Assembly (NCBI GenBank): GCA_026261815.1
Contig: JAMPIT010000894.1
Location: 51,681,147 to 51,745,146, forward strand
Direction: 5' to 3'
DNA length: 64,000 bases
Origin: Monarcha castaneiventris obscurior
Lineage: Eukaryota > Chordata > Aves > Passeriformes > Monarchidae
The translations under genes were made by a program, and so were the position numbers. The notes under the pieces were generated by a model that saw nothing but the letters and a program-made list of their open reading frames with translations, searched no databases and was not told the DNA's origin. This document shows, in pieces, positions 13,171-38,184 of this stretch (positions are counted from its first letter, which is position 1; every line of letters starts with the position of its first letter).

Positions 13171-13193
13171 TGTCAGGAAAATCCACAAGCGCC
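13171..13193 (-). mobile_element. 23-bp LTR-A 3' terminus stub (minus orientation)
   Basis: TGTCAGGAAAATCC and the next nine bases match, with two mismatches, the minus-strand 3' end of the LTR-A copy at 37747-37769. The rest of that LTR is missing. After the stub a plus-oriented LTR-A starts at once. Confidence 0.8.
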
Positions 13194-13618
13194 TGAGAGG
13201 AAAGCTGATGTCTACAAACCATTGGGTGGGTGAGGTGTGGTGTTACCGCCTGTGACATGGGGCTCGATGTCTCTGCTGACTCCGGGCAGCAGCTCTGGGG
13301 CAGAGCCCAGGCAGCTCGGCTCCTGCAACAGACAAGGCTCTGCACAAGCCTCAGCTCCTGAGCTTTGGGGTAAAACAGCGGCTTCAGGGGGGATCTCTGG
13401 GGAAGGCGCTGCGGGAAGGCTGCACCTTCCCTGTCCCTCAGCCAGAGGGGCAAGGAAGAGGGCACCGGGAGTTTGGGATAAAAGGAGGCTGCACCCTCTG
13501 CAACCCCGAGAGAGAAAAGCCCGCGGCGTGTGCCCAGTGGAGCCTCCCCCTTCATTCGAATAAGGCTGAAGGACTCCTCTGTTTTCTTTTTGGACATAAA
13601 CCTCTGGCGTTTGCGGAC
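13194..13618 (+). mobile_element. LTR-A, left outer copy (5' LTR of provirus 1)
   Basis: Starts TGAGAGGAAAGCTG and carries a TATA-like GGGATAAAAGG at about 13476-13486 and a U5-like tail. Compared with the right outer copy, two 9-base deletions remove the CA-proximal end of the LTR and most of the primer-binding site. It also differs at several positions from all three other LTR-A copies, which are closer to each other. Confidence 0.88.
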
Positions 13619-14880
13619 AAGGCCCGGGACCCTCCTGGGCTCGGCTGGGCCCGGCCCGCGGCAGGAGGAGCCGCAGGCGCCTCAGCCATTGCAGGGAGCG
13701 GCTCCTGCGGCGCTGCCGCCCCGGGCGAGGGACGGGACCCGAGAGTGGCCGGGACACAGACGGGAGGCGGACCGGGGATCCACGGAGAGTCCACAGGAAA
13801 GGACATGGATGCCCAGAGGGAGCAGTAAGGCCAAGGCGAGAAGGGTCTCGGCAAATCTCAGCGGTGAGTGCAGCTTCGGGGAGTAAAACGTGGCAGGAGG
13901 CCCAGGGTGGGCAGCAAAGAAAGTCGAACAAAGGTCTCGACTGTAGGCTCGACGATCCCAAAATACCTCCGAAGGGTCCTTTGGGAGAATGTGCAAACCA
14001 TCTCAACATTGTCCCAGAGGTGGTTAAGGACGGGAATGCCCAGAGCGGGCAATAAGAGGAGCCGAGAAAGGGTCTCGGCAACCCAGGGCCAGAGCGGGCA
14101 GTGCGGTGTTGGTTTGGGAAAGGATTGGCTGAAGGGCAGTGTGGAGGAACATGGTTGAGGCAAATAGCAGCGGAGGGCTATGTGATACGGAATCTTCGAC
14201 ATCTGCCGTCTGATACAGGGAGCGGCTTTGGTCTTTTGTATTCCTGGTTTCCAGGAGAGGGAAAACCAGGGAGGTGTTGTTCCTATAGCCCCAGCACTCC
14301 CCGGGTGTGGGGAGGAGGGTGAGCACCGGGAGGAGGAGGAAGGAAGAGCTGGGAAATGCGGGTGGTACGTGGAAGAACTAGCATCTTCTTTTAAGGATTT
14401 TGGAGAAACGAGTGATTTTGAGCTGTGGGAGAATGAGTACCCACAGGCAGTAGCGGGGGTGGCTAGAGGAAGGGCAGAATAAATCCCTGGATGAAATGGT
14501 TAGAAAGATAAGTGTATGTAGGAAGGGATGAGGAGAAGGCAAAGGTGGTAGCAGAGTTATTACAGCCCCAGAGGAATAAACTGCAGGGCCCAGGGGTGCC
14601 CCGGGACAGGGTCGGCCACAAGGATGTGGCAGAGGCATTCCCCCTCAGCAATATTCCCAGCAATCCAAACAGTGGCTGGGAAAGAATCAGTGTGCTGTGT
14701 GCAGGGCAGAGGGACTCTGGAATCGGGAATATCCGCAGAAACAACTGGATCCTCAGGAGGAGGAAGTTCAGAGGGTAATGGAGAAGGATTGCTAGGGGTG
14801 TCAGGGGCTCCCATTGTACCAGGGACCCACCACACTGGAGCCCTTGCTAACCTTTAAGCAAGGATCAAGAGGAGGTGTGT
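13619..14880 (+). pseudogene. Provirus 1 leader and gag remnant
   Basis: Decayed 5' leader and gag of a gammaretrovirus-like (class I) ERV. No continuous gag frame remains, and the length (about 1.2 kb including the leader) is short, so most of the capsid region appears lost. The clearest piece is a single nucleocapsid zinc-knuckle relic at 14691-14732. It keeps the first two Cys (CAVC) and the spacing of a CCHC box, but the His is Leu and the last Cys is Tyr. The leader part (13810-14110) contains three or four diverged copies of a GCCCAGAG-GGGCA / AAGGGTCTCGG motif pair. Provirus proteins normally form the virion core; this copy cannot. Confidence 0.7.
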
Positions 14881-15060
14881 TTCCTGGTAGATGCAGGGGC
14901 CTCTCAATCCACTTTGAATTTTATCCCTAATGGGAGAAAATTGTCAAAAAGATCTTTGATTGATTATTCAAGGGGTGAATGGAAAGGATGAGCAGGTGCA
15001 TTTTATTCAACCACTATTGGTGAATGTGTATGTGTTAATTTAGTTTTGCCAGTGAAATCA
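14881..15060 (+). pseudogene. Provirus 1 aspartic protease remnant
   Basis: The reading FLVDAGASQSTLNFIP at 14881-14928 is the active-site strand of a retroviral aspartic protease. The usual D-T/S-G-A core here reads D-A-G-A. Stops follow within the domain, and the flap and C-terminal motifs are not recognisable before the 27-bp repeat begins. The position just after the zinc-knuckle relic fits gag-pro order. Confidence 0.8.
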
Positions 15061-15094
15061 GCTGGCAAAGGAACTGGAGAACTCGAGAAGCCAG

Positions 15095-15385
15095 CAGCTA
15101 AGAACTGCTGCATCCAACCAGCAGCCAGGAACTGCTGCATCCAGCCAGCAGCCAGGAACTGCTGCATCCAGCCAGCAGCCAGGAATTGCTGCATCCAACC
15201 AGCAGCCAGGAACTGCTGCATCCAACCAGCAGCTAAGAACTGCTGCATCCAGCCAGCAGCCAGGAATTGCTGCATCCAACCAGCAGCCAGGAACTGCTGC
15301 ATCCAGCCAGCAGCCAGGAACTGCTGCATCCAGCCAGCAGCCAGGAACTGCTGCATCCAGCCAGCAGCCAGGAATTGCTGCATCT
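15095..15385. repeat. 27-bp minisatellite, 11 copies (left arm)
   Basis: The unit is AACTGCTGCATCCAGCCAGC plus AGCCAGG, about 11 copies. It sits between the protease and RNase H remnants, where reverse transcriptase should be. The unit has no stop in several frames on both strands, so it reads as repeated NCCIQPAAR (plus) or MQQFLAAGW (minus). These are repeat translations, not proteins. The mirrored array has 15 copies. Confidence 0.95.
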
Positions 15386-15448
15386 AACAGTTGCATCCAG
15401 CTCACTGTGAGTTTGTTCTGTGAGCACTGACGACTTGCACCTCATGCC

Positions 15449-16014
15449 ATGTTACTGAAACAGGGTGATGCCACTCTGCAGACATTTGCTGACAGCCCTG
15501 CTGTGTCTCTGTTCCCCACACTAACTAATAATGTCTCTGAGTGTTTGCAGACCATTGAAGAGGCCTGTTCCAGCAGACCAGACCTGAAGGATGTGCCACC
15601 ACAAGATCCACACTGGGAGCTGATTGCAGACAAGAGCAGCTTCCTGGGGGATGGCAAACAGATGAAAGTGATGCAGTGGTAACCGTGGAGCAGGTAAATG
15701 AGACAAAAGCCTTGCCATCAGATGTATCATCACAAAAAGCTGATCAGATGGCATCAAGGAAAGAACTGAGCAAAGTCATCTGGAAGGAAGGAGGATTGAC
15801 TGTTCAGGGTAATGGATTTGAACACACTGGACAGATGTATGCACTGCTACAGAGTGTTTGGAAGTCTAAAGAAACAGCCTTTATGCACTGCAGAGTTCAT
15901 CAAAACAGGAAAACAGCTCCTGAACTAGAGAATCATTCTGCTGATGAAATAGTAAAAGGGGCTGCAGAAAAAGGCATCTTAGCAGTGGTGCCACAGAGGG
16001 GAGCTGATTTGTGA
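15449..16014 (+). pseudogene. Provirus 1 RNase H remnant
   Basis: Two overlapping open pieces (15449-15682 and 15676-16014) in different frames cover a gammaretroviral RNase H domain. The first holds DPHWELIADKSSFLGDGK, corresponding to the first catalytic strand but with an altered D-G-S motif. The second holds the helix region and FMHCRVHQNRKT plus NHSADEIVKGAA, matching the C-terminal His/Asp motifs. The frame break and changed residues make it inactive. RNase H degrades the RNA strand during reverse transcription. Confidence 0.85.
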
Positions 16015-16167
16015 AGGCTTTCCCCCAGAGTGTTATCAGAAGGACCATCAGTTTTCTAGCAGAAGAGCTGAAATCAGAGAAAGTGAATGGGCTGTTACAG
16101 CAGAGGGACAGACTCTAATCCCACTGCAGCAAGAACATGAAGGCACACACAGGGAACACAGAACCTT

Positions 16168-16860
16168 TTGAAACATCTGAAGAAGGTAGCAGTAGAAAGG
16201 GAAATGACTGATATTGTGCAGTGTATAAAAAGCAAATGTAAAACCTGCTATGGAAACAACCCAAACATGAGCAAAAGAGTTGTGTTAGAAATAACAGAGG
16301 CAGGGGCTTTTCCTGGAGATTACTGGCAAATAGATTCTGCTGAGTTACCAAGCAGAGAAGGAAACAGGTAAGTGTTAGTTGACACCTTTAGTGGGTGGCC
16401 TGAAGCTTACCCCAGTAACAGGAGCACAGCAAGGGAGTGGTGAAAATTTTACTCAATCATATCATTCCAAAGTTTGGGCTTCCTTTGGGATTGGTCTCCC
16501 AGTGATCAGGGAGATTAGTCAGCTTTTAGGAATTGTTTAGGATCTGTAAATTCCCTGTACACCCCAGACAAGTGGTAAGGCTGAATGTATGAACAGAACT
16601 CTCAGAACACAGATTAGTGAAATTTGTCAGAAATATCCATGACGTGGGTTCAGGCCTTGCCTGCAGCCTTCCTGAGAATCCACATGCAGCCAAGGTGGAG
16701 AGGCAGCCTAAGTCCTTGGGAAATACTGCATGGCAGGCCATGTTAAATTGTGGCTATCACAGGAGACATTCATGGGAGGGGAAAATTGACTTCCTGAGGT
16801 ATTGAACAGCTTTTAAGTTCCACTTTGCAGAAGCTGCAGAGATCCCTCGTGTTACCCAGA
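16168..16860 (+). pseudogene. Provirus 1 integrase remnant
   Basis: A retroviral integrase split by stops and frame changes. The 16168-16371 part holds the zinc-binding CKTC pair and GDYWQIDSAELP, with the first catalytic Asp. After a stop the strand VDTFSGWPEAYPS follows, then HIIPKFGLPLG. SDQGD, with the second Asp position, lies in another frame near a stop. TPQTSGKAECMNRTLRTQ keeps the catalytic Glu. The DD35E triad is thus still visible in pieces. C-terminal sequence decays before about 16860. Confidence 0.88.
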
Positions 16861-17314
16861 CAGGTAGGACTGGACACAGCTGCTCATCTGTTCCAGCCCA
16901 GAGCCTGAGTGTCTGCTAACAGAGAGACAGGGACCCTTACAGGCTGAGAGAACCATTCCAAGTCCTGACTGCCCTCACCCAAACCAGAGGTGCTGCCAGA
17001 GAACCCTGAATTCACTGCTCCAGAGTTCAGAACACCTCTGCTCCTCAAACAGCTGGAAAACAGAGACTGACACAAATCAGGATGATGTGGTTTAAATTAT
17101 TCTTTTGTCCCTGTTAATCTGCACAGCTGGTAACCATGGCTGAGATCTGACCCCAAAATTTACATGTAACTTTAGCCCAAAATGTGTCCAAAAGCTGTTC
17201 ATAAGAGCAACTTGTCAGGGTAATACTGAGTATGTGAGAATGTGGCCTGGTAAGTTTTGCCCCTAGATAAAGATCAGGCCTGTGTCCATGGGACTGTAAT
17301 TACAAACATAAGAT
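16861..17314 (+). other. Provirus 1 pol/env junction, heavily decayed
   Basis: This stretch lies between the integrase and Env transmembrane remnants, where the surface part of env would be. I cannot recognise surface-subunit motifs. It is far shorter than a normal surface subunit, so most of that part appears deleted. Confidence 0.5.
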
Positions 17315-17560
17315 TTGATTCTTGAACATACTGAAAAGCAAATTTCAGATGCAATTTCAGCCTTACAAGAAGTCCAAGATTTGTGTGGTGTAGTTTTACA
17401 AAACAGAATGACTCCTAATTTCCTACTCGCTGCAAAACCATTAACACTGGTTGTTGTTCTTATGCAGATCAGAGCAAAAGTCTTTATTAAGAAAGATTTG
17501 GTTCAGATTGAAAAGCAAACTCAAATTGTACACCAGGCAGCTCTCAGAGGAGCTCAGTGA
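17315..17560 (+). pseudogene. Provirus 1 Env transmembrane-subunit remnant
   Basis: An 81-codon open piece with the heptad-like EKQISDAISALQ followed by VVLQNRMTPNFLLAAK. This is the place and pattern of the Env coiled coil and conserved LQNR segment of gamma/alpha-type retroviruses. The expected Cys motif after it is missing. A membrane-proximal hydrophobic stretch (EIVIVTWCLALVCF) appears only after an intervening repeat (17684-17960), at about 18072-18115, and is probably the rest of the same subunit. No intact Env is encoded. Confidence 0.72.
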
Positions 17561-17683
17561 ACCTTGACTATACCTTCAGCTCACTCATTTCATGGTCACC
17601 AGACTGGGCCTGTGCCCTGGGCTGCAGTGTGTTCTGTTACCAGCCCCAGGAGCTGTGACAGCAGCTGGGGCAGGGTTTCCTTG

Positions 17684-17960
17684 CCTCCTCCCTCCTGATT
17701 ATCTTCTGTTAATGAGCCCAATCAACGGCCTGGCCTCATTACTGATCATCCCATTGGGAGCTGCTCCGCCCAGAGGGAGGAACCAAGCATTCCAGGCTGG
17801 ATAAAATCTGGCATTCCAAACACCCCAGACCCCCTTTTCCACTGGATTCCCAGAGGCTGGGGCTGCACAGCCACCACTGGCCCTTCCGAGGAAGAGCAGC
17901 CCCTTCTGCAGGATCACAGCTTCAGCAGAGCCACAGCCACCACTGCAGGAGGATGCAGCC
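17684..17960 (-). mobile_element. Repeat family C, copy inside the env remnant
   Basis: This segment is the diverged reverse complement of 19400-19620. Shared stretches on the minus strand include GATCCTGCAGAAGGGGCTGC and GGTTCCTCCCTCTGGGCGG. A third copy in the same orientation lies in the spacer (25418-25545). Read on the plus strand it carries GGCTGGATAAAATC, a TATA-like box. It splits the two Env pieces, so it probably inserted there. The style is that of an avian ERV LTR, but I cannot fix its ends or name the family. Confidence 0.6.
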
Positions 17961-17999
17961 ACCATTTTATTGGCCTGCTGCCACCACCCTGACTGACAG

Positions 18000-18281
18000 G
18001 GGGTCAGGTTGTATCCTGTCAGTTTAACCCAGCGTTTTGCTGCTTTTTTTCCTTTTTTCTTCATTTCCCTATGAAATTGTTATTGTGACTTGGTGCCTCG
18101 CACTGGTTTGTTTTCAACCTAGCACAGCCTGGATAAAAGAAGTGTTCACAGAAGCTGCAGCTGTAGCTGACATCTGTATGATGGCCAGTGGGATAACAAG
18201 TTGTATGAACTGGTGGTGTGGGTAAATCTGGAGTAGAGATGAGACAACATAGAGTCTTGTTAGTCTCTAAAAAGGGGGGAA
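18000..18281 (+). pseudogene. Env C-terminal relic and polypurine tract of provirus 1
   Basis: A hydrophobic stretch and short tail (open to about 18225) are followed by the polypurine tract AAAAAGGGGGGAA at 18269-18281. This tract primes plus-strand synthesis in retroviruses and normally abuts the 3' LTR, as it does here. Confidence 0.75.
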
Positions 18282-18850
18282 TGATGCCATTTTGGGTTTT
18301 ACCTCTTTCTTTTATAGGTTCTGTCTATTCTTCACACATATATTTGTAACTCTGTATAGCTCAGCTTCAGTATTTAATAGCTCTTCACACATATATTTGT
18401 AACTCTGTATAGCTCAGCTTCAGTATTTAATAGCTCTGTAGCTGTATTTTATAGCTGTTTTTATACACAGGCAGAAAGACAAAACACATTCTGAGGCCCC
18501 TGTGCTATCTCAGTTCTCCTCAGAAACCAAGGGCAGAAAACAGCTCGTACCAAGGGGGGGACTCCAGAAAAGGGTTGAACCACAACAGGGAAATTATCTC
18601 ATCACCTGTGCTCCTAACTGGTACTTTTTTGTCAATTATGCTAATTTACCAAACCCATAAACTGTATGCACCTCGATGGGGGGTGGGCTTTTGTGGACAT
18701 CTTTCCATAAGTGGCCCTGGAGGCCTTCAATAAAGATCTATTTTTATATTAGCTCCTATACTAATATAATATCGAAAGTGTGTGTGGTTTCATTTCTGGG
18801 TTGAAAAAGGCATCCCAGGCAAACAGAAGTAACACAGGGACACCCGTGAG
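18282..18850 (+). mobile_element. LTR-B, 3' LTR of provirus 1 (left arm)
   Basis: Begins TGATGCCATTTTGG directly after the polypurine tract. Its U3 has a perfect 53-bp direct repeat (18330-18382 and 18383-18435), the arrangement of a retroviral enhancer duplication. A polyadenylation signal AATAAA lies at 18730-18735, followed by a GTGTGTGTGG stretch. The CA end is not certain; I place it near 18,850. It has no visible similarity to LTR-A at the other end of the same provirus. Confidence 0.8.
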
Positions 18851-19399
18851 AGTTTGCTCAATGTGTGGGATGGGTTTGAAAAGCGTGAGGCTCTGATTGT
18901 TCCTGGCTGTGACTGTGGTTTGCTGGGAGGGCATTTGATGACTGGAGTTGGGAATGCGAGTCAGTGCTGTAAGGTGTGAGGGGGAGGCTGGCGCTGCTGT
19001 GAATTCTGGAGGGAACCCAGAGGTGTGGGCAGTCCCCCAGGAATGTGGAGAACTGGATGTGGAGCCTCTCCACATGACTCTGAGGTGACCTGGACAAGTG
19101 GTGTGTGAAAAGCAACAACCTCTGTCTCGGTGTGAAAGGCAGGGGTCTGCTAAGGAAGGCAGGAGCCTCCCTTGGAATGGAAAATGCAACCCCCTTCCCT
19201 CCCAATTATTATAATCTGGAAATTAAAGGGCCTTCAGGCAAAAATATGAGAACTAGGAGTAACAGTTCTTCACTAACAAATCCATAACAAGGCAGTAACA
19301 CAGAAACCCTGCCTTAGCCTGCCAGAGCCAGGACAAGACCTGACACCCTGTGGGCAGGGGGTCACAGTCCCATTAAGGGGTGGCTGCAGTGCCCTGAAG
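18851..19399. other. Non-coding ERV-associated segment
   Basis: The first 240 bases (18867-19105) recur in the spacer at 25578-25815 with few differences. The remainder contains a GAAAATGCAACCCCCTTCCC stretch and AT-rich filler typical of avian ERV internal-3' or LTR sequence. No reading frame is supportable. Confidence 0.55.
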
Positions 19400-20136
19400 T
19401 GATGGACACGGTTCTGTCAGAGCCCTGATCCTGGAGAAGGGGCTGCTCCTCCTCTGAAGGTGCAGGGCTGGTGATGGAGCTCTTGTCCTCTGGGAAGCCG
19501 GGAGGTGAGGGCTCCCTAAGGTGCTCCAAACCCCAGATCCCATCCGGGCAGGAATGCTCGGTTCCTCCCCCTGGGCGGGGCATCTCGCAGTGGGACGATG
19601 CAATGTCATGGGCCAGCAGCGAGGCTGGATGGGCCACTGCCAGAAGCTCTCCCGGGAGGGAGTTATCAGGGATGTGCCAGGGAAGAGATAAAGAGCCCAG
19701 CCCCACCTGGTTCCAGGCTGCTGATAGAACCCAAACCTTTGGTCCCAGCTCCCCCTGTGACCCCAGAGAGCCTCTGGCGAGGGCAGGCAGCCTTGCAGCC
19801 CCGGTGAGAGCCCTGCTGGCAGCAGCTCTGTGGGAGCCGTGCCTGGCTCCCGGGAACGCTCCCGGCCCGGCAGAGCAGTGGGGCCGGGGCAGCCCGGGCA
19901 CCCCACGGCCCCAGGGCCCGGCAGCGCCTCCAGCCGGGCTCCCTCCTGGGGCTGCTGGAGGGATTTGGCCTCTGAGCGGGAACAGGAGGGACAAGGGGTT
20001 CTTTGGGCAAGGCTTTAGCCAGATTTAATCCCAGCCTAGCACTCAGGGTATTGCAGGGTGTGCAGGACTCGCTCCTGCTGGGAAAATGGGAGGATGTGCC
20101 GAGGAAGCACTGGGAAATGGTTTGGTTTTCTGGCCA
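19400..20136 (+). mobile_element. Repeat family C, long copy beside the satellite (left arm)
   Basis: GC-rich LTR-like sequence. Its first 220 bases are homologous (inverted) to 17684-17960. Its last 200 bases (19935-20135) recur, diverged, in the spacer at 26030-26265. It includes GAAGAGATAAAGAGCCC, a TATA-like element. The open frames on both strands (up to 210 codons) come from low stop content in GC-rich DNA. It ends at GGTTTTCTGGCCAG, where the 31-bp satellite begins. Confidence 0.6.
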
Positions 20137-22637
20137 GTAGGGGTTACTTGAGGTCATTGGAGTCCCTGGTGGGGTTACCTGAGGTCATTTGGGTCCCTGT
20201 TGGGGTTACCTGAGGTCATTTGAGATGCTGGTGGGGTCACTTGAGGTCATTTGGGGTTACTTGAGGTCATTTGAGACCCTGGTGGGGTCACTTGAGTTCA
20301 TTGGAGTCCCTGGCGGGGTCACTTGAGGTCATTTGGGTCCCTGGTGGGGTCACTTGAGGTCATTTGGGGTCCCTGGTGAGGTTACTCGAGGTCATTTGAG
20401 ACCCAGGGTGGGGTCACTTGAGGTCATTTGGGGTCACTCGAGGTCATTTGGGGCCCTGGTGGGGTCACTCGAGGTTATTTGGGTCCCTGGTGGGGTCACT
20501 CGAGGTCATTTGGGGTCACTCGAGGTCATTTGAGAACCAGGGTGGGGTTACTTGAGGTCATTTGGGGTTACTTGAGGTCATTTGGGTCCTTAGTGGGGTC
20601 ACTCGAGGTCATTTGGGTCCCTGGTGGGGTTACTTGAGGTCATTTGTGTCCCTGGTGGGGTTACTTGAGGTCATTTGTGTCCCTGGTGGGGTCACTCGAG
20701 GTCATTTGGGTCCTTGGTGGGGTCACTCGAGGTCATTTGAGACCCTGGTGGGGTCACTCGAGGTCATTTGAGACCCTGGTGGGGTTACTTGAGGTCATTT
20801 GGGTCCCTGGTGGGGTCACTCGAGGTCATTTGGGTCCCTGGTGGGGTCACTCGAGGTCATTTGAGACCCTGGTGGGGTCACTCGAGGTCATTTGGGTCCC
20901 TGCTGGGGTCACTCGAGGTCATTTGGGTCCCTGGTGGGGTCACTCGAGGTCATTTGGGTCCCTGGTGGGGTCACTTGAGGTCATTTGGGTCCTTGGTGGG
21001 GTTACTTGAGGTCATTTGGGTCCTTGGTGGGGCCACTCAAGGTCATTTGAGACCCTGATGGGGTCACTCGAGGTCATTTGGGTCCCTGCTGGGGTCACTC
21101 GAGGTCATTTGAGACCCTGGTGGGGTCACTTGAGGTCATTTGAGACCCTGGTGGGGTCACTCGAGGTCATTTGAGACCCTGGTGGGGTCACTTGAGGTCA
21201 TTTGGGTCCCTGGTGGGGTCACTTGAGGTCATTTGGGTCCTGGTGGGGTCACTCGAGGTCATTTGAGACCCTGGTGGGGTTACTTGAAGTCATTCGGGTC
21301 CTTGGTGGGGTCACTTGAGGTCATTTGGGTCCTTGGTGGGGTCACTCGAGGTCATTTGAGACCCTGGTGGTGTCACTCAAGGTCATTTGGGTCCCTGGTG
21401 GGGTTACTTGAGGTCATTTGTGTCCCTGGTGGGGTCACTCGAGGTCATTTGAGACCCTGGTGGGGTTACTTGAGGTCCTTTGAGACCCTGGTGGGGTCAC
21501 TTGAGGTCATTTGGGTCCTTGGTGGGGTCACTCGAGGTCATTTGAGACCCTGGTGGGGTCACTTGAGGTCATTTGGGTCCTTGGTGGGGTTACTTGAGGT
21601 CATTTGGGTCCTTGGTGGGGTCACTCGAGGTCATTTGAGACCCTGGTGGGGTCACTCGAGGTCATTTGAGACCCTGGTGGGGTCACTTGAGGTCATTTGG
21701 GTCCCTGGTGGGGTCACTTGAGGTCATTTGGGTCCTTGGTGGGGTCACTCGAGGTCATTTGGGTCCTTGGTGGGGTCACTCGAGGTCATTTGAGACTCTG
21801 GTGGGGTTACTTGAGGTCATTTGTGTCCCTGGTGGGGTCACTCGAGGTCATTTGAGACCCTGGTGGGGTTACTTGAGGTCATTTGTGTCCCTGGTGGGGT
21901 CACTCGAGGTCATTTGGGTCCTTGGTGGGGTCACTCGAGGTCATTTGAGACCCTGGTGGGGTCACTTGAGGTCATTTGGGTCCTTGGTGGGGTCACTCGA
22001 GGTCATTTGAGACTCTGGTGGGGTTACTTGAGGTCATTTGTGTCCCTGGTGGGGTCACTCGAGGTCATTTGAGACCCTGGTGGGGTTACTTGAGGTCATT
22101 TGTGTCCCTGGTGGGGTCACTCGAGGTCATTTGGGTCCTTGGTGGGGTCACTCGAGGTCATTTGAGACCCTGGTGGGGTCACTCGAGGTCATTTGAGACC
22201 CTGGTGGGGTTACTTGAGGTCATTTGGGTCCTTGGTGGGGTCACTTGAGGTCATTTGTGTCCCTGGTGGGGTCACTCGAGGTCATTTGGGTCCTTGGTGG
22301 GGTCACTCGAGGTCATTTGAGACCCTGGTGGGGTACTTGAGGTCATTTGGGTCCTTGGTGGGGTCACTCGAGGTCATTTGGGTCCTGGTGGGGTCACTCG
22401 AGGTCATTTGAGACCCTGGTGGGGTCACTTGAGGTCATTTGGGTCCTTGGTGGGGTCACTCGAGGTCATTTGGGTCCCTGGTGGGGTCACTTGAGGTCAT
22501 TTGAGACCCTGGTGGGGTCACTTGAGGTCATTTGGGGTTACTCGAGGTCTTTTGGGTCCTTGGTGGGGTTACATGAGGTCATTTGAGTCCTTTGTGGGGT
22601 TACTTGAGGTCATCTGGCATCACTTGAGGTCACTGAG
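20137..22637. repeat. 31-bp satellite, about 80 copies (left arm)
   Basis: The unit is CTGGTGGGGTCACTTGAGG plus TCATTTGGGTCC (31 bp). Common variants are TGAGACC for TGGGTCC, CTCGAG for CTTGAG and GGTTAC for GGTCAC. A few shorter units lack the CTGGTGG part. The most frequent version contains GGGTCACTTGAGGTCA. The array lies between family C and LTR-A. The mirrored array is about 1.1 kb shorter. Confidence 0.96.
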
Positions 22638-23073
22638 TGCAGGAAAATCCGCCAGCCCCAGAGGTTTCTGTGCAAAGAGGAGCCAGAGGAGCCCTGCAGC
22701 TTCACTCGAGTGAAGGGGGAGGCTCCACTGGGCACACACCGCGGGCTTTTCTCTCTCGGGGTGTCAGAGGGCGCAGCCTCCTTTTATCCCAAACTCCCGG
22801 TGCCCTCTTCCTTGCCCCACTGGCTGAGGGACAGGGAAGGTGCAGCCTTCCCGCAGCGCCTTCCCCACAGATCCCCCCTGAAGCCGCTGTTTTACCCCAA
22901 AGCTCAGGAGCTGAGGCTTGTGCAGAGCCTTGTCTGTTGCAGGAGCCGAGCTGCCTGGGCTCTGCCCCAGAGCTGCTGCCCGGAGTCAGCAGAGACATCG
23001 AGCCCCATGTCACAGGCGGTAACACCACACCTCACCCACCCAATGGTTTGTAAACACATCAGCTTTCCTCTCA
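22638..23073 (-). mobile_element. LTR-A, left inner copy (3' LTR of provirus 2)
   Basis: 436 bp in minus orientation from TGAGAGG (23073) to the TGCA end (22638). It is preceded (minus) by a polypurine tract AGAGGAGGAGGGGC at 23074-23088, so it is a 3' LTR. The 108-codon conceptual translation across it equals that of 29327-29653 exactly. The 31-bp satellite starts immediately after it. Confidence 0.93.
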
Positions 23074-23474: not shown

Positions 23475-23596
23475 ACAGGGACACAGGGACCTGGCCACAG
23501 GGACCTGGGCATGATAACCTGGCCACAGGGACCCGGCCACAGGGACCTGGCCACAGGGACCCGGCCACAGGGACCCGGCCACAGGGACCCGGCCAC
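23475..23596. repeat. 15-bp tandem repeat (left arm)
   Basis: About seven copies of GGCCACAGGGACCTG, with variants GGGCATGATAACCTG and CCCGG. It lies in the decayed env part of provirus 2. The mirrored array is about 45 bp longer. Confidence 0.9.
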
Positions 23597-28716: not shown

Positions 28717-28880
28717 GTGGCCGGGTCCCTGTGGCCGGGTCCCTGTGGCCAGGTCCCTGTGGCCGGGTCCCTGTGGCCAGGTCCCTGTGCCCAGGTCCCT
28801 ATGGCCAGGTTATCATGCCCAGGTCCCTATGGCCAGGTTATCATGCCCAGGTCCCTGTGGCCAGGTCCCTGTGTCCCTGT
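28717..28880. repeat. 15-bp tandem repeat (right arm)
   Basis: About ten copies of CAGGTCCCTGTGGCC, including two extra CAGGTTATCATGCC-type variants compared with the left arm. This accounts for the 45-bp step in mirrored coordinates. Confidence 0.9.
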
Positions 28881-29032
28881 GCTCTCTCTGGCAGGAAGCC
28901 CACTCGGCACAGACGCTGCCTTTGCACTTGGCTGTTCCCAGCACCCAAGCAGGACGCAGAGACAGCAGCCAGGACAGCTCAGCACGGCTGGGCCCATCCC
29001 ACTCTGCTCAGGGTCTCTGAAGCCCTGGAGAT

Positions 29033-29281
29033 TTGGAGTTCCCCACTGGAAGAAAAGGACGGGAGCCCTTGGCTAGCAGTAGCCATGGACCTCTAGTGAT
29101 TGCTGGGCTCATGGGAACTGTGCTTGTCCACTTTATTCTCTGTGTTTGCTTTCCACACCTGCTGCAGGGAGCAGACATGGAAGAGCCAGGAGAGGACATT
29201 TCTAATGTCCCAGGTTGTTAAAAAGGGTTAAGGTAAACTAAGGTTTGTAAAGACAGATTGAGAAGTAAGAGGAGGAGGGGC
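29033..29281 (+). pseudogene. Provirus 2 Env tail remnant and polypurine tract (right arm)
   Basis: Mirror of the left-arm piece, with an identical 62-codon reading (29033-29221). The polypurine tract AAGAGGAGGAGGGGC at 29267-29281 abuts the LTR. Confidence 0.65.
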
Positions 29282-29717
29282 TGAGAGGAAAGCTGATGTG
29301 TTTACAAACCATTGGGTGGGTGAGGTGTGGTGTTACCGCCTGTGACATGGGGCTCGATGTCTCTGCTGACTCCGGGCAGCAGCTCTGGGGCAGAGCCCAG
29401 GCAGCTCGGCTCCTGCAACAGACAAGGCTCTGCACAAGCCTCAGCTCCTGAGCTTTGGGGTAAAACAGCGGCTTCAGGGGGGATCTGTGGGGAAGGCGCT
29501 GCGGGAAGGCTGCACCTTCCCTGTCCCTCAGCCAGTGGGGCAAGGAAGAGGGCACCGGGAGTTTGGGATAAAAGGAGGCTGCGCCCTCTGACACCCCGAG
29601 AGAGAAAAGCCCGCGGCGTGTGCCCAGTGGAGCCTCCCCCTTCACTCGAGTGAAGCTGCAGGGCTCCTCTGGCTCCTCTTTGCACAGAAACCTCTGGGGC
29701 TGGCGGATTTTCCTGCA
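29282..29717 (+). mobile_element. LTR-A, right inner copy (3' LTR of provirus 2)
   Basis: 436 bp from TGAGAGG to CCTGCA, with TATA-like GGGATAAAAGG near 29565. It is extremely similar to the left inner copy. The last 40 bases (CTGGGGCTGGCGG) differ from the outer LTR-A copies (CTGGCGTTTGCGG), a useful inner/outer marker. Confidence 0.93.
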
Positions 29718-31094
29718 CTCAGTGACCTCAAGTGATGCCAGATGACCTCAAGTAACCCCACAAAGGACCCAAATGACCTCATGTAACCCCACCAAGGACC
29801 CAAATGACCTCGAGTAACCCCAAATGACCTCAAGTGACCCCACCAGGGTCTCAAATGACCTCGAGTGACCCCACCAGGGACCCAAATGACCTCAAGTAAC
29901 CCCACCAGGGTCTCAAATGACCTCAAGTAACCCCACCAGGGTCTCAAATGACCTCAAGTGACCCCACCAAGGACCCAAATGACCTCAAGTAACCCCACCA
30001 AGGACCCAAATGACCTCGAGTGACCCCACCAAGGACCCAAATGACCTCAAGTAACCCCACCAGGGTCTCAAATGACCTCGAGTGACCCCACCAAGGACCC
30101 AAATGACCTCGAGTGACCCCACCAGGGTCTCAAATGACCTCGCGTGACCCCACCAGGGACCCAAATGACCTCAAGTGACCCCACCAGGGTCTCAAATGAC
30201 CTCAAGTAACCCCACCAGGGTCTCAAATGACCTCGAGTAACCCCACCAAGGACCCAAATGACCTCAAGTGACCCCACCAAGGACCCAAATGACCTCGAGT
30301 AACCCCACCAGGGTCTCAAATGACCTCAAGTGACCCCACCAAGGACCCAAATGACCTCAAGTGACCCCACCAGGGTCTCAAATGACCTCGAGTGACCCCA
30401 CCAGGGACCCAAATGACCTCGAGTGACCCCACCAGGGTCTCAAATGACCTCGAGTGACCCCACCAGGGACCCAAATGACCTCGAGTGACCCCACCAGGGT
30501 CTCAAATGACCTCGAGTGACCCCACCAAGGACCCAAATGACCTCGAGTAACCCCACCAGGGTCTCAAATGACCTCGAGTGACCCCACCAAGGACCCCAAA
30601 TGACCTCAAGTAACCCCAAATGACCTCAAGTAACCCCACCCTGGGTCTCAAATGACCTCAAGTGACCCCAAATGACCTCGAGTGACCCCACCAGGGACCC
30701 AAATGACCTCAACTGACCCCAGCAGGGCCCCAAATGACCTTGAGTGACCCCAAATCACCTCAAGTGACCCCACCAGGATCTCAAATGACCTCGAGTAACC
30801 CCACAGAGCACCCAAATGACCTCGAGTGACCCCACAAGGGACCCAAATGACCTCGAGTGACCCCAAATGACCTCAAGTAACCCCACCAGGGACCCAAATG
30901 ACCTCGAGTGACCCCACAAGGGACTCCAATGTACTCAAGTGACCCCACCAGGGTCTCAAATGACCTCAAGTAACCCCAAATGACCTCAAGTGACCCCACC
31001 AGCATCTCAAATGACCTCAGGTAACCCCACCAAGGACCCAAATGACCTCAGGTAACCCCACCAGGGACTCCAATGACCTCAAGTAACCCCTACT
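29718..31094. repeat. 31-bp satellite, about 44 copies (right arm)
   Basis: Reverse complement of the left-arm array (plus-strand core TGACCTCAAGTGACCCC), but roughly 36 units shorter. Variants found near both ends match those of the left array; the interior order is not collinear. Confidence 0.96.
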
Positions 31095-31830
31095 GGCCAG
31101 AAAACCAAACCATTTCCCAGTGCTTCCTCGGCACATCCTCCCATTTTCCCAGCAGGAGCGAGTCCTGCACACCCTGCAATACCCTGAGTGCTAGGCTGGG
31201 ATTAAATCTGGCTAAAGCCTTGCCCAAAGAACCCCTTGTCCCTCCTGTTCCCGCTCAGAGGCCAAATCCCTCCAGCAGCCCCAGGAGGGAGCCCGGCTGG
31301 AGGCGCTGCCGGGCCCTGGGGCCGTGGGGTGCCCGGGCTGCCCCGGCCCCACTGCTCTGCCGGGCCGGGAGCGTTCCCGGGAGCCAGGCACGGCTCCCAC
31401 AGAGCTGCTGCCAGCAGGGCTCTCACCGGGGCTGCAAGGCTGCCTGCCCTCGCCAGAGGCTCTCTGGGGTCACAGGGGGAGCTGGGACCAAAGGTTTGGG
31501 TTCTATCAGCAGCCTGGAACCAGGTGGGGCTGGGCTCTTTATCTCTTCCCTGGCACATCCCTGATAACTCCCTCCCGGGAGAGCTTCTGGCAGTGGCCCA
31601 TCCAGCCTCGCTGCTGGCCCATGACATTGCATCGTCCCACTGCGAGATGCCCCGCCCAGGGGGAGGAACCAATTCCTGCCCGGGTGGGATCTGGGGTTTG
31701 GAGCACCTTAGGGAGCCCTCACCTCCCGGCTTCCCAGAGGACAAGAGCTCCATCACCAGCCCTGCACCTTCAGAGGAGGAGCAGCCCCTTCTCCAGGATC
31801 AGGGCTCTGACAGAACCGTGTCCATCACTT
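31095..31830 (-). mobile_element. Repeat family C, long copy (right arm)
   Basis: Mirror of 19400-20136, with few differences, including a small in-frame deletion near 31672 (GGGAGGAACCAATTCCTGCC against the left arm's longer form). Confidence 0.6.
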
Positions 31831-32376
31831 CAGGGCACTGCAGCCACCCCTTAATGGGACTGTGACCCCCTGCCCACAGGGTGTCAGGTCTTGTCCTGGC
31901 TCTGGCAGGCTAAGGCAGGGTTTCTGTGTTACTGCCTTGTTATGGATTTGTTAGTGAGGAGCTGTTATTCCTAGTTCTCATATTTTTGCCTGAAGGCCCT
32001 TTAATTTCCAGATTATAATAATTGGGAGGGAAGGGGGTTGCATTTTCCATTCCAAGGGAGGCTCCTGCCTTCCTTAGCAGACCCCTGCCTTTCACACCGA
32101 GACAGAGGGAGTTGCTTTTCACACACCACTTGTCCAGGTCACCTCAGAGTCATGTGGAGAGGCTCCACATCCAGTTCTCCACATTCCTGGGGGACTGCCC
32201 ACACCTCTGGGTTCCCTCCAGAATTCACAGCAGCGCCAGCCTCCCCCTCACCCCTTACAGCACTGACTCGCATTCCCAATTCCAGTCATCAAATGCCCTC
32301 CCAGCAAACCACAGTCACAGCCAGGAACAATCAGAGCCTCACGCTTTTCAAACCCATCCCACACATTGAGCAAACT
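31831..32376. other. Non-coding ERV-associated segment (right arm)
   Basis: Mirror of 18851-19399. No supportable frame. Confidence 0.5.
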
Positions 32377-32945
32377 CTCACGGGTGTCCCTGTGTTACTT
32401 CTGTTTGCCTGGGATGCCTTTTTCAACCCAGAAATGAAACCACACACACTTTCGATATTATATTAGTATAGGAGCTAATATAAAAATAGATCTTTATTGA
32501 AGGCCTCCAGGGCCACTTATGGAAAGATGTCCACAAAAGCCCACCCCCCATCGAGGTGCATACAGTTTATGGGTTTGGTAAATTAGCATAATTGACAAAA
32601 AAGTACCAGTTAGGAGCACAGGTGATGAGGTAATTTCCCTGTTGTGGTTCAACCCTTTTCTGGAGTCCCCCCCTTGGTACGAGCTGTTTTCTGCCCTTGG
32701 TTTCTGAGGAGAACTGAGATAGCACAGGGGCCTCAGAATGTGTTTTGTCTTTCTGCCTGTGTATAAAAACAGCTATAAAATACAGCTACAGAGCTATTAA
32801 ATACTGAAGCTGAGCTATACAGAGTTACAAATATATGTGTGAAGAGCTATTAAATACTGAAGCTGAGCTATACAGAGTTACAAATATATGTGTGAAGAAT
32901 AGACAGAACCTATAAAAGAAAGAGGTAAAACCCAAAATGGCATCA
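32377..32945 (-). mobile_element. LTR-B, right arm copy
   Basis: Minus-oriented mirror of 18282-18850. It starts TGATGCC at 32945 after the polypurine tract (32946-32958). The 53-bp direct repeat is kept. The end near 32377 is uncertain, as in the left arm. Confidence 0.8.
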
Positions 32946-33269
32946 TTCCCCCCTTTTTAGAGACTAACAAGACTCTATGTTGTCTCATCTCTACTCCAGA
33001 TTTACCCACACCACCAGTTCATACAACTTGTTATCCCACTGGCCATCATACAGATGTCAGCTACAGCTGCAGCTTCTGTGAACACTTCTTTTATCCAGGC
33101 TGTGCTAGGTTGAAAACAAACCAGTGCGAGGCACCAAGTCACAATAACAATTTCATAGGGAAATGAAGAAAAAAGGGAAAAAAAGGCAGCAAAACGCTGG
33201 GTTAAACTGACAGGATACAACCTGACCCCCTGTCAGTCAGGGTGGTGGCAGCAGGCCAATAAAATGGTG
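32946..33269 (-). pseudogene. Provirus 1 Env C-terminal relic (right arm)
   Basis: Mirror of 18000-18281, with a 72-codon open piece (33002-33220) that carries the hydrophobic EIVIVTWCLALVCF stretch and ends shortly before the polypurine tract. Confidence 0.65.
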
Positions 33270-33546
33270 GCTGCATCCTCCTGCAGTGGTGGCTGTGGCT
33301 CTGCTGAAGCTGTGATCCTGCAGAAGGGGCTGCTCTTCCTCGGAAGGGCCAGTGGTGGCTGTGCAGCCCCAGCCTCTGGGAATCCAGGGGGAAAGGGGGT
33401 GTGGGGTGTTCGGAATGCCAGATTTGATCCAGCCTGGAATGCTTGGTTCCTCCCTCTGGGCGGAGCAGCTCCCAATGGGATGATCAGTAATGAGGCCAGG
33501 CCGTTGATTGGGCTCATTAACAGAAGATAATCAGGAGGGAGGAGGC
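33270..33546 (+). mobile_element. Repeat family C, copy in env remnant (right arm)
   Basis: Mirror of 17684-17960. The left copy has GGATAAAATC where this one has GGATCAAATC (read on its minus strand), so the TATA-like box is present in only one arm. The spacer copy also reads GGATCAAATC. Confidence 0.6.
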
Positions 33547-33668
33547 AAGGAAACCCTGCCCCAGCTGCTGTCACAGCTCCTGGGGCTGGTAACAGAACAC
33601 ACTGCAGCCCAGGGCACAGGCCCAGTCTGGTGACCATGAAATGAGTGAGCTGAAGGTATAGTCAAGGT

Positions 33669-33917
33669 TCACTGAGCTCCTCTGAGAGCTGCCTGGTGTA
33701 CAATTTGAGTTTGCTTTTCAATCTGAACCAAATCTTTCTTAATAAAGACTTTTGCTCTGATCTGCATAAGAACAGCAACCAGTGTTAATGGTTTTGCAGC
33801 GAGTAGGAAATTAGGAATCATTCTGTTTTGTAAAACTACACCAAACAAATCATGGACTTCTTCTTGTAAGGCTGAAATTGCATCTGAAATTTGCTTTTCA
33901 GTATGTTCAAGAATCAA
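33669..33917 (-). pseudogene. Provirus 1 Env transmembrane remnant (right arm)
   Basis: Mirror of 17315-17560. This copy has one more codon in the coiled-coil region (EEVHDLF against EVQDLC), so it is slightly less decayed than the left copy. Confidence 0.72.
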
Positions 33918-34389
33918 ATCTTATGTTTGTAATTACAGTCCCATGGACACAGGCCTGATCTTTATCTAGGGGCAAAACTTACCAGGCCACATTCTCACAT
34001 ACTCAGTATTACCCTGACAAGTTGCTCTTATGAACAGCTTTTGGACACATTTTGGGCTGAAGTTACATGTAAATTTTGGGGTCAGATCTCAGCCATGGTT
34101 ACCAACTGTGCAGATAACAGGCACAAAAGAATAATTTAAACCACATCATCCTGATTTGTGTCAGTCTCTGTTTTCCAGCTGTTTGAGGAGCAGAGGTGTT
34201 CTGAACTCTGGAGCAGTGAATTCAGGGTTCTCTGGCAGCACCTCTGGTTTGGGTGAGGGCAGTCAGGACTTGGAATGGTTCTCTCAGCCTGTAAGGGTCC
34301 CTGTCTCTCTGTTAGCAGACACTCAGGCTCTGGGCTGGAACAGATGAGCAGCTGTGTCCAGTCCTACCTGTCTGGGTAACACGAGGGAT
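33918..34389. other. Provirus 1 pol/env junction (right arm)
   Basis: Mirror of 16861-17314, with no recognisable surface-subunit sequence. Confidence 0.5.
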
Positions 34390-35083
34390 CTCTGCAGCTT
34401 CTGCAAAGTGGAACTTAAAAGCTGTTCAATACCTCAGGAAGTCAATTTTCCCCTCCCATGAATGTCTCTTGTGAATGTCTCTTGTCTATCTTGTGATAGC
34501 CACAATTTAACATGGCCTGCCATGCAGTATTTCCCAAGGACTTAGGCTGCCTCTCCACCTTGGCTGCTTGTGGATTCTCAGGAAGGCTGCAGGCAAGGCC
34601 TGAACCCACGTCATGGATATTTCTGACAAATTTTAGTCATCTGTATTTGAGAGGTCTCTTCACACATTCAGCCTTACCACTTGTCTGGGGTGTACAGGGA
34701 ATTTACAGATCCTAAACAATTCCTAAAAGCTGACTAATCTCCCTGATCACTGGGGATCAACCCCAAAGGAAGCCCAAACTTTGGAATGATATGATTGAGT
34801 AAAATTTTCACCACTCCCTTGCTGTGCTCCTGTTACTGGGGTAAGCTTCAGGCCACCCACTAAAGGTGTCAACTAACACTTACCTGTTTCCTTCTCTGCT
34901 TGGTAACTCAGCAGAATCTATTTGCCAGTAATCTCCAGGAAAAGCCCCTGCCTCTGTTATTTCTAACACAACTCTTTTGCTCATGTTTGGGTTGTTTCTA
35001 TAGCAGGTTTTACATTTGCTTTTTATACACTGCACAATATCAGTCATTTCCCTTTCTACTGCTACCTTCTTCAGATGTTTCAA
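34390..35083 (-). pseudogene. Provirus 1 integrase remnant (right arm)
   Basis: Mirror of 16168-16860, with the same CKTC, GDYWQIDSAELP and VDTFSGWPEA pieces. The arms differ at a few sites (for example TCYGNN against TCYRNN). A small insertion repeating GAATGTCTCTTGT sits at about 34460-34490 in this arm only. Confidence 0.86.
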
Positions 35084-35236
35084 AAGGTTCTGTGTTCCCT
35101 GTGTGTGCCTTCATGTTCTTGCTGCAGTGGGATTAGAGTCTGTCCCTCTGCTGTAACAGCCCATTCACTTTCTCTGATTTCAGCTCTTCTGCTAGAAAAC
35201 TGATGGTCCTTCTGATAACACTCTGGGGGAAAGCCT

Positions 35237-35802
35237 TCACAAATCAGTTCCCCTCTGTGGCACCACTGCTAAGATGCCTTTTTCTGCAGCCCCTTTTACT
35301 ATTTCATCAGCAGAATGATTCTCTAGTTCAGGAGCTGTTTTCCTGTTTTGATGAACTCTGCAGTGCATAAAGGCTGTTTCTTTAGACTTCCAAACACTCT
35401 GTAGCAGTGCATACATCTGTCCAGTGTGTTCAAATCCATTACCCTGAACAGTCAATCCTCTTTCCTTCCAGATGACTTTGCTCAGTTCTTTCCTTGATGC
35501 CATCTGATCAGCTTTTTGTGATGATACATCTGATGGCAAGGCTTTTGTCTCATTTACCTGCTCCACGGTTACCACTGCATCACTTTCATCTGTTTGCCAT
35601 CCCCCAGGAAGCTGCTCTTGTCTGCAATCAGCTCCCAGTGTGGATCTTGTGGTGGCACATCCTTCAGGTCTGGTCTGCTGGAACAGGCCTCTTCAATGGT
35701 CTGCAAACAGTCAGAGACATTATTAGTTAGTGTGGGGAACAGAGACACACCAGGGCTGTCAGCAAATGTCTGCAGAGTAGCATTACCCTGTTTCAGTAAC
35801 AT
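35237..35802 (-). pseudogene. Provirus 1 RNase H remnant (right arm)
   Basis: Mirror of 15449-16014, in the same two frames, with a handful of substitutions (ECLQT against DCLQT, QRGADL against QRGTDL). The shared frame break predates the duplication. Confidence 0.85.
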
Positions 35803-35865
35803 GGCATGAGGTGCAAGTCGTCAGTGCTCACAGAACAAACTCACAGTGAGCTGGATGCAACTGTT

Positions 35866-36265
35866 AGATGCAGCAATTCCTGGCTGCTGGCTGGATGCAG
35901 CAATTCCTGGCTGCTGGCTGGATGCAGCAATTCCTGGCTGCTGGCTGGATGCAGCAGTTCCTGGCTGCTGGCTGGATGCAGCAGTTCCTGGCTGCTGGCT
36001 GGATGCAGCAGTTCCTGGCTGCTGGTTGGATGCAGCAGTTCCTGGCTGCTGGCTGGATGCAGCAGTTCCTGGCTGCTGGCTGGATGCAGCAGTTCCTGGC
36101 TGCTGGCTGGATGCAGCAATTCCTGGCTGCTGGCTGGATGCAGCAGTTCCTGGCTGCTGGTTGGATGCAGCAATTCCTGGCTGCTGGCTGGATGCAGCAA
36201 TTCCTGGCTGCTGGTTGGATGCAGCAATTCCTGGCTGCTGGCTGGATGCAGCAGTTCTTAGCTGC
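35866..36265. repeat. 27-bp minisatellite, 15 copies (right arm)
   Basis: Reverse complement of the array at 15095-15385, with four more copies. The difference (4 x 27 = 108 bp) equals the step in mirrored coordinates at this place. Confidence 0.95.
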
Positions 36266-36298
36266 TTGCTTCTCCAGTTCTCCAGTTCCTTTGCCAGC

Positions 36299-36478
36299 TG
36301 ATTTCACTGGCAAAACTAAATTAACACATACACATTCACCAATAGTGGTTGAGTAAAAGGCACCTGCTCATCCTTTCCATTCACCCCTTGAATAATCAAT
36401 CAAAGATCTTTTTGACAATTTTCTCCCCTTAGGGATAAAATTCAAAGTGGATTGAGAGGCCCCTGCATCTACCAGGAA
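36299..36478 (-). pseudogene. Provirus 1 protease remnant (right arm)
   Basis: Mirror of 14881-15060, with the same D-A-G-A active-site reading. Confidence 0.8.
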
Positions 36479-37746
36479 ACACACCTCCTCTTGATCCTTG
36501 CTTAAAGGTTAGCAAGGGCTCCAGTGGTGGGTCCCTGGTACAATGGGAGCCCCTGACACCCCTAGCAATCCTTCTCCATTACCCTCTGGACTTCCTCCTC
36601 CTGAGGATCCAGTTGTTTCTGCGGATATTCCCGATTCCAGAGTCCCTCTGCCCTGCACACAGCACACTGATTCTTTCCCAGCCACTGTTTGGGTTGCTGG
36701 GAATATTGCTGAGGGGGAATGCCTCTGCCACATCCTTGTGGCCGACCCTGTCCCGGGGCACCCCTGGGCCCTGCAGTTTATTCCTCTGGGGCTGTAATAA
36801 CTCTGCCACCACCTTTGCCTTCTCCTCATCCCTTCTTACATACACTTACCTTTCTAACCATTTCATCCAGGGATTTATTCTGCCCTTCCTCTAGCCACCC
36901 CCGCTACTGCCTGTGGGTACTCATTCTCCCACAGCTCAAAATCACTCGTTTCTCCAAAATCCTTAAAAGAAGATGCTAGTTCTTCCACGTATAATCCGCA
37001 TTTCCCAGCTATTCCTTCCTCCTCCTCCCGGTGCTCACCCTCCCCCCCACACCCGGGGAGTGCTGGGGCTGTAGGAACAACACCTCCCTGGTTTTCCCTC
37101 TCCTGGAAACCGGGAATACAAAAGACCAAAGCCGCTCCCTGTATCAGACGGCAGATGTCGAAGATTCCGTATCACATAGCCCTCGGCTGCTATTTGCCTC
37201 AACCATGTTCCTCCACACTGCCCTTCAGCCAATCCTTTCCCAAACCAACACCGCACTGCCCGCTCTGGCCCTGGGTTGCCGAGACCCTTTCTCGGCTCCT
37301 CTTATTGCCCGCTCTGGGCATTCCCGTCCTTAACCACCTGTGGGACAATGTTGAGATGGTTTGCACATTCTCCCAAAGGACCCTTCGGAGGTATTTTGGG
37401 ATCGTCGAGCCTACAGTCGAGACCTTTGTTCGACTTTCTTTGCTGCCCACCCTGGGCCTCCTGCCACGTTTTACTCCCCGAAGCTGCACTCACCGCTGAG
37501 ATTTGCCGAGACCCTTCTCGCCTTGGCCTTACTGCTCCCTCTGGGCATCCATGTCCTTTCCTGTGGACTCTCCGTGGATCCCCGGTCCGCCTCCCGTCTG
37601 TGTCCCGGCCACTCTCGGGTCCCGTCCCTCGCCCGGGGCGGCAGCGCCGCAGGAGCCGCTCCCTGCAATGGCTGAGGCGCCTGCGGCTCCTCCTGCCGCG
37701 GGCCGGGCCCAGCCGAGCCCAGGAGGGTCCCGGGCCGAGCCCCCCT
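36479..37746 (-). pseudogene. Provirus 1 leader and gag remnant with primer-binding site (right arm)
   Basis: Mirror of 13619-14880, including the degenerate zinc knuckle at 36625-36666. Here the primer-binding site is preserved. Just after LTR-A the minus strand reads AGGGGGGCTCGGCCCGGGA (37746-37728), close to the 18-base site complementary to the 3' end of tRNA-Pro used by gammaretroviruses. This is the best evidence for the class I assignment. Confidence 0.75.
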
Positions 37747-38184
37747 TGTCAGGAAAATCCGCAAACGCCAGAGGTTTATGTCTAAAAAGGGAAAGAGAGG
37801 AGTCCTTCAGCCTTATTCGAATGAAGGGGGAGGCTCCACTGGGCACACGCCGCGGGCTTTTCTCTCTCGGGGTGTCAGAGGGCGCAGCCTCCTTTTATCC
37901 CAAACTCCCGGTGCCCTCTTCCTTGCCCCACTGGCTGAGGGACAGGGAAGGTGCAGCCTTCCCGCAGCGCCTTCCCCACAGATCCCCCCTGAAGCCGCTG
38001 TTTTACCCCAAAGCTCAGGAGCTGAGGCTTGTGCAGAGCCCTGTCTGTTGCAGGAGCCGAGCTGCCTGGGCTCTGCCCCAGAGCTGCTGCCCGGAGTCAG
38101 CAGAGACATCGAGCCCCATTTCACAGGCGGTAACACCACACCTCACCCACCCAATGGTTTGTAAACACATCAGCTTTCCTCTCA
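37747..38184 (-). mobile_element. LTR-A, right outer copy (5' LTR of provirus 1)
   Basis: 438 bp with intact TG (38184) and CA (37747) ends and CCTGACA next to the primer-binding site. It points toward RIC3, but from 25 kb away. Its outer end abuts the right CR1 half exactly. Confidence 0.93.

Follow-up and report, generated by a model that had tools for sequence, protein, structure and literature searches.

A long inverted repeat of decayed retroviral DNA next to RIC3 in Monarcha castaneiventris obscurior and its putative origin inside a provirus

The DNA adjoining the gene RIC3 in Monarcha castaneiventris obscurior raises the question of how a long palindrome can arise from retroviral DNA. 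A block of 25,000 letters (13171–38184), whose content is broken retroviral DNA, lies here next to RIC3 and consists of two inverted arms around a spacer. All positions refer to the window, which is the whole stretch of 64,000 nucleotides that was analysed (assembly GCA_026261815.1, contig JAMPIT010000894.1, 51,681,147–51,745,146 of the forward strand). We consider that the block probably arose, a view held with limited confidence, when an inserted provirus was broken and the right arm (arm B) was copied by fold-back, the copy then being captured at a long terminal repeat (LTR).

Geometry of the inverted repeat and divergence of its arms

The preliminary description of this DNA reported a long inverted repeat with a short spacer and proposed a dot plot of the window against itself. 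Self-BLAST, a check of the same type, reveals the inverted arms, and the global alignment of the two halves leads to the same geometry:

13194–25394, plus strand: arm A of the inverted repeat, 12,201 bp (self-BLAST, global alignment)
25395–26915, plus strand: spacer, 1,521 bp (self-BLAST, sequence comparison)
26916–38184, minus strand: arm B of the inverted repeat, 11,269 bp (self-BLAST, global alignment)

The BLAST pairing reaches one shared base further at the inner edge. The 23 bases at the left edge of the block, 13171–13193, are part of the block and lie outside the arm pairing. The identity of the arms was computed without three tandem arrays with units of 27 bp, 31/62 bp and 14 bp. Outside these arrays the arms are 98.95% identical, with 97 mismatches in 9,261 aligned sites and 13 indel events, and this match is far beyond chance. 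The mismatches comprise 60 transitions, 8 of them in CpG context, and 37 transversions. The pairing had been called near-perfect, which is true outside the tandem arrays and does not hold within them, where the arms differ far more. The arms also have their decay in common and differ in tandem copy number, both as previously described:

15089–15384, no strand: 27-bp tandem array, arm A, 11.0 copies
35867–36270, no strand: 27-bp tandem array, arm B, 15.0 copies
20140–22617, plus strand: 31/62-bp tandem array, arm A, 2,478 bp
29738–31090, minus strand: 31/62-bp tandem array, arm B, 1,353 bp
23482–23597, no strand: 14-bp tandem array, arm A, 8.3 copies
28716–28873, no strand: 14-bp tandem array, arm B, 11.3 copies

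The 31/62-bp array contains 78 units in arm A (35 distinct) versus 46 units in arm B (29 distinct), and 15 unit types are common to both. Its edges mostly agree between the arms and its interiors are scrambled; the DNA around it shows a difference of about 1%. The lengths of the alignment gaps hinted at a higher-order unit of about 248 bp in this array. Such a unit is not clear: arm A shows no increase in identity at lag 248, and arm B has a value of 0.674 there versus 0.671 at lag 93. A 53-bp doublet is present in 2.1 copies in each arm.

The divergence is not evenly distributed along the arms. The outermost 432 sites contain 13 mismatches and diverge by 3.0% (p 0.0005 in a Fisher test of these sites versus the remaining ones). 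Seven of the nine remaining segments diverge by 0.7–1.25%, and the lowest values are 0.17% in 18277–18870 and 0.23% in 22641–23073, the latter holding an inner LTR. The mismatches are clustered. Bins of 100 sites give a variance-to-mean ratio of 1.76, bins of 250 sites one of 2.21 and bins of 500 sites one of 2.45, and these values were attained in 0, 1 and 0 of 2,000 shuffles, respectively. The longest identical run of 673 sites spans a removed array and is not unusual (p 0.066). Patchy exchange between the arms or uneven mutation would either of them produce this pattern. Bird substitution rates are roughly 2–4.6e-9 per site per year or generation. With these rates, the arm difference of about 1.05% gives a rough age for the separation of the copies on the order of 1–2.6 million years (or generations), which would be a minimum if the arms exchange.

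Retroviral content, outer ends and inner junctions

Judging from its enzyme-like fragments, the block is retroviral but decayed DNA. Eight sequence searches of the PDB were made, each with a separate open reading frame (ORF) piece, and the arm A copies were used for ribonuclease H (RNase H) and integrase. Five of the eight were topped by retroviral enzymes, which bears out the retroviral content claimed earlier. The remaining three, one of them with the second ORF of the spacer, gave no retroviral match. The matching pieces, including one with similarity to reverse transcriptase (RT) in the spacer, are as follows:

15431–15679, plus strand: RT-RNase H piece of the first pol fragment, arm A (retroviral RT-RNase H structure, PDB E 0.0065)
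15559–16011, plus strand: RNase H piece of the first pol fragment, arm A (retroviral RNase H structure, PDB E 5.7e-7, the best value)
24240–24512, minus strand: integrase piece of the second pol fragment, arm A (3dlr, E 0.0028; prototype foamy virus (PFV) integrase, 0.0079)
24951–25229, minus strand: C-terminal RNase H piece of the second pol fragment, arm A (PDB E 8.2e-4)
26492–26731, plus strand: RT-like piece in the spacer (Gag-Pol/RT, PDB E 0.3)

The arm A copy of the first pol fragment extends over 15431–16011 on the plus strand and that of the second over 24240–25229 on the minus strand. Relatedness of pol to gammaretroviral RT-RNase H is found in the piece 15559–16011 (E 5.7e-7), the other pieces being weaker.

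One type of LTR occurs four times in the block. The outer pair has its U3 end outward, the inner pair has the opposite orientation, and each arm carries one LTR of each pair:

13194–13618, plus strand: outer LTR of arm A, U3 outward, with an 18-bp deletion at the U5 end compared with arm B
22648–23073, minus strand: inner LTR of arm A, with a purine-rich tract before it on its own strand
29282–29714, plus strand: inner LTR of arm B
37747–38184, minus strand: outer LTR of arm B, U3 outward
18269–18870, plus strand: polypurine-tract-like run (about 18269–18281) and a second LTR-like stretch with the 53-bp doublet, seen in the sequence and read as a candidate polypurine tract and LTR

All four LTRs begin with the same TGAGAGG. 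The sequences outside this start are of three different kinds, the inner pair sharing one. LTR ends of the form TG...CA are observed, and look-alikes of a primer-binding site and a polypurine tract are candidates for such elements. The two outer LTRs differ by 3.0%, and the inner LTR region 22641–23073 shows one mismatch in 433 sites to its arm B copy. Between the outer and the inner pair, 0 of the first 361 sites compared carry a fixed difference, and 14 of the final 63 do. This mosaic points to an exchange between LTRs or to an LTR that was recombinant before the duplication. The copies have a common U3 and two U5 types.

The outer ends of the block are marked by the following short sequences:

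13167–13170, no strand: left copy of a target-site near-duplication, CTAC
13171–13193, minus strand: U5-end remnant of a minus-strand LTR, 23 bp, 21 of 23 bases identical to 37747–37769
38185–38188, no strand: right copy of the target-site near-duplication, CTGC

When 13171–13193 is compared with the window, the U5 end of the right outer LTR is the best match (21/23), followed by the U5 ends of the inner LTRs (17/23). The block has a U5 end at its left and a U3 end at its right, both belonging to LTRs of the same type on the minus strand, and it is therefore bounded like one minus-strand provirus. Position 13194 was considered as the provirus end and was ruled out by the match of 13171–13193 to the LTR U5 end. 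Joining through the microhomology AGAGG, which is found near both sides of the left outer junction, was ruled out as well, as the bases TG are retained.

CR1-like sequence had been reported on both sides of the block, and comparison with a CR1 tail agrees with this. The joined host flanks fit this tail best if a 4-bp duplication is assumed (score 43; lengths of 0–10 bp were tried). The margin over other lengths is small, and this fit is support and not proof. Within the window, the left flank has one 49-bp match of 79.6% identity (E 7e-7) near 56.8 kb, and the right flank has no convincing match. We take 56760–56808 and 58895–59227 to be CR1-like pieces, the latter a CR1-like 3′ end. From the LTR ends together with the flanks resembling a target-site duplication (TSD), the whole palindrome seems to lie within the footprint of one provirus insertion, with arm B keeping the original outer end. 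The outer LTR of arm B is interpreted as the 5′ LTR that the outer provirus had originally.

At the inner edge of arm A the homology stops at 25394, with one more base shared. The seven bases after 25394, of which the shared base is one, have their exact reverse complement in the seven that follow:

25395–25408, no strand: perfect palindrome of 7 + 7 bases without a loop at the junction of arm A and spacer

Eight such 14-bp palindromes are present in the window. The chance of finding one within a neighbourhood of 10–15 bp is about 0.001–0.002, a value to be read with the fact that the junction palindrome was noticed after the fact. We read it as a putative scar of fold-back repair with 6–7 extra bases. 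On the plus strand, the RT-like piece of the spacer is followed by RNase H, integrase, purine tract and LTR in arm B. This order from RT to LTR continues from the spacer only into arm B and not into arm A. Because these pieces run in order, their arrangement fits an original continuity of spacer and arm B. The spacer is single-copy solely as a whole. Its part 25410–26253 resembles three stretches of arm A, 17677–17848, 18871–19111 and 19960–20134, which keep their order and orientation there, with identities of 90.7%, 97.5% and 74.6%, respectively, and about 1 kb is absent between the first two stretches. This resemblance would imply an older direct duplication or a related insertion beneath the palindrome.

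Putative origin of the palindrome and rival explanations

In the proposed course of events, a gammaretrovirus-like provirus would have entered a CR1 element that lies directly upstream of RIC3, in minus-strand orientation, and would later itself have been invaded by other retroviral fragments and by tandem arrays. A double-strand break may then have occurred towards the left end of the locus. Of the two broken ends, the right-hand one would have folded back, leaving the templated scar of 6–7 bases, and its extension would have copied arm B into arm A, the loop becoming the spacer. An LTR end, situated 23 bp inward of the former provirus end, would have been the point at which the copy was connected with the left side. 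Later drift would have brought the arms to about 1% difference, with the arrays turning over faster. Of this account, the arms, their junction sequences, the remnant of an LTR end, the TSD-like flanks and retroviral RNase H are observed, and the order of insertions, the break, the fold-back, the copying direction and the capture at an LTR are inferred.

Several of these steps have parallels in published work. The spacers of human fold-back inverted duplications measure 766–70,466 bp (PMC3907307), a range that includes the 1,521 bp found in this block. Among the human junctions without repeat homology, 13 of 18 have inverted microhomology and 5 of 18 have insertions (PMC3907307). The junction of arm A and spacer lacks the microhomology of 2–8 bp and has the form with an insertion, its 6–7 bases mirroring the spacer edge. 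Very short templated inverted insertions at breaks arise through fold-back in yeast (PMC11724301). No adjacent terminal deletion, translocation or ring was found. Both flanks fit parts of one CR1-like element, so the block is interstitial. The block would thus work like a fold-back inverted duplication, without being filed in that class.

Several observations weigh against an origin by fold-back and capture. The outer end of arm A lies exactly at the LTR terminus, a position not expected from fold-back by itself. Because of this position, we suggest that an LTR already present at the outer edge of arm A served as the homology. The 3.0% divergence of the outer LTRs agrees with a pre-existing LTR, and less exchange at the edge of the palindrome could explain it as well. 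The TSD-like flanks CTAC and CTGC agree in just three of four bases, and the fit of the CR1 tail with 4 bp leads that with 3 bp by one unit (43 versus 42; the other lengths score 33–41). The homology at the scar junction is 1 bp. In the spacer the RT match is weak (E 0.3), the PDB search with the second spacer ORF found nothing retroviral, and tblastn of three pol ORF pieces against the spacer and inner arm B gave nothing significant (best E 0.30). Three Pfam scans, of 10, 42 and 9 ORFs, three of which are RIC3, did not detect any retroviral family; they took in 53 of the 103 ORFs of at least 55 amino acids in 13000–27000, arrays excluded. The human fold-back cases adjoin terminal deletions, translocations or rings (PMC3907307), and the block does not. 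Finally, the structure is known here from the assembled sequence alone, in one genome.

The last point leads to the rival of an assembly artefact, in which the inverted join would have been made either with the other haplotype of an arm that exists only once or with a chimeric read produced by fold-back. The difference of about 1% and the different array lengths do resemble allelic variation, and about 0.55–0.6% of Oxford Nanopore Technologies (ONT) genomic reads are fold-back artefacts (PMC12870357). The same source describes such reads as virtually absent from PacBio HiFi data, which would count against an artefact if this assembly was built from data of that type. An artefact is nevertheless improbable: the window contains no N bases and hence no N gap, the arms, instead of being identical, are set apart by 97 substitutions and 13 indel events, and the junctions bear a scar and the 23-bp LTR remnant where a bare fold would be expected. 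A simple assembly fold was set aside as the main reading because of the arm differences and the junction scars, and it is kept as a rival. Just as improbable is an inverted duplication in which LTRs of opposite orientation recombined by homology between sister chromatids, without any fold-back. It would draw on the four LTR copies in two orientations and on the switch from 0/361 to 14/63 fixed differences, and the inner junction of arm A, which lies in pol, with a scar, and not in an LTR, speaks against it.

If one element had inserted twice, independently and in opposite orientations, this would explain the exact LTR terminus at the outer edge of arm A and the greater divergence of the outermost LTR (3.0%) compared with the rest. 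We regard this as still less likely, because both arms have the same long mixed order (antisense inner LTR, integrase, RNase H and three arrays), their identity outside the arrays is 98.95%, and the inner end of arm A lies inside a pol piece, not at an LTR. Hardly to be expected at all is a palindrome kept by selection and gene conversion, as on sex chromosomes. The clustering of mismatches speaks for it. The arm identity, on the other hand, falls narrowly short of the more than 99% given for mammalian sex-chromosome palindromes in PMC8981503, and it is under the 99.9% given for them in PMC3723533. In addition, none of the 53 ORFs scanned in 13000–27000 reached a curated Pfam cut-off.

The locus, if confirmed, would help to explain the occurrence of long palindromes in repeat-rich DNA, and the turnover of arrays and the exchange between the arms could be tested on it. 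Should it be refuted, it is a useful warning on inverted joins of haplotypes. As a base-level example in which both outer ends and both inner junctions can be read, it bears on how long palindromes can originate in retroviral DNA upstream of a gene with the flanking element preserved. It is conceivable, though doubtful, that nested proviruses generally become long palindromes inside their own insertion sites by way of LTR-capped fold-back, sparing the flanking gene. A break inside the provirus would fold back, the remaining half would be copied, and the copy would be captured by an LTR. A transcript of such a palindrome would be a kilobase-scale retroviral hairpin RNA next to RIC3.

The RIC3 neighbourhood and comparison with known systems

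The neighbouring gene lies outside the block and extends leftwards from 12648:

12646–12648, minus strand: RIC3 start codon, assigned by eye

The distance from this codon to the block edge at 13171 is 523 bp, in accordance with the previously estimated 520 bp, and a CR1-like piece sits between the first exon of RIC3 and the block. Pfam supports the exon ORFs 4014–4301 (E 2.2e-20) and 693–929 (E 5e-7); the exon 1 ORF by itself has a Pfam E of 0.058, below the curated cut-off. Scans of the window with Rfam at gathering thresholds and for tRNAs gave no matches. Three further tandem repeats were observed near the gene. A 33-bp minisatellite of about 22 copies lies at 10482–11294, between exon 1 and the next exon found; a 174-bp unit occurs three times in tandem, 97% alike, at 2800–3322 between two detected exons; and a 12-bp unit occurs six times at 12748–12819, in a GC-rich stretch about 100 bp upstream of the start codon.

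Structures of both general types, long inverted repeats and fold-back inverted duplications, have been described before. The unusual feature of this block is its LTR-capped outer end within the footprint of a single provirus. Neither an autosomal retroviral palindrome in birds nor this RIC3 locus is described in the titles or abstract openings of the literature matches listed.

With class I (gammaretrovirus-like) endogenous retroviruses the block has in common RNase H and RT-like pieces that match enzymes of the type of xenotropic murine leukemia virus-related virus (XMRV). It may also share their TG...CA LTR ends, a form that is seen here, and their 4-bp target-site duplication, to which its flanks correspond in three of four bases. 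It differs from them as a heavily decayed, rearranged mosaic of several elements, in which one integrase piece best matches foamy-virus integrase. The human fold-back duplications of PMC3907307 resemble the block in their inverted copy, in a single-copy spacer such as the one of about 1.5 kb seen here and in the small insertion at one spacer edge, whereas the outer end of the block lies at an LTR terminus and its arms are 11–12 kb long. A W-linked palindrome is known in the white-throated sparrow (PMC3403216). Like this and other sex-chromosome palindromes (PMC3403216, PMC8981503), the block has long arms, a short spacer and uneven divergence; unlike them, it has a slightly lower identity and no gene recognised in its arms.

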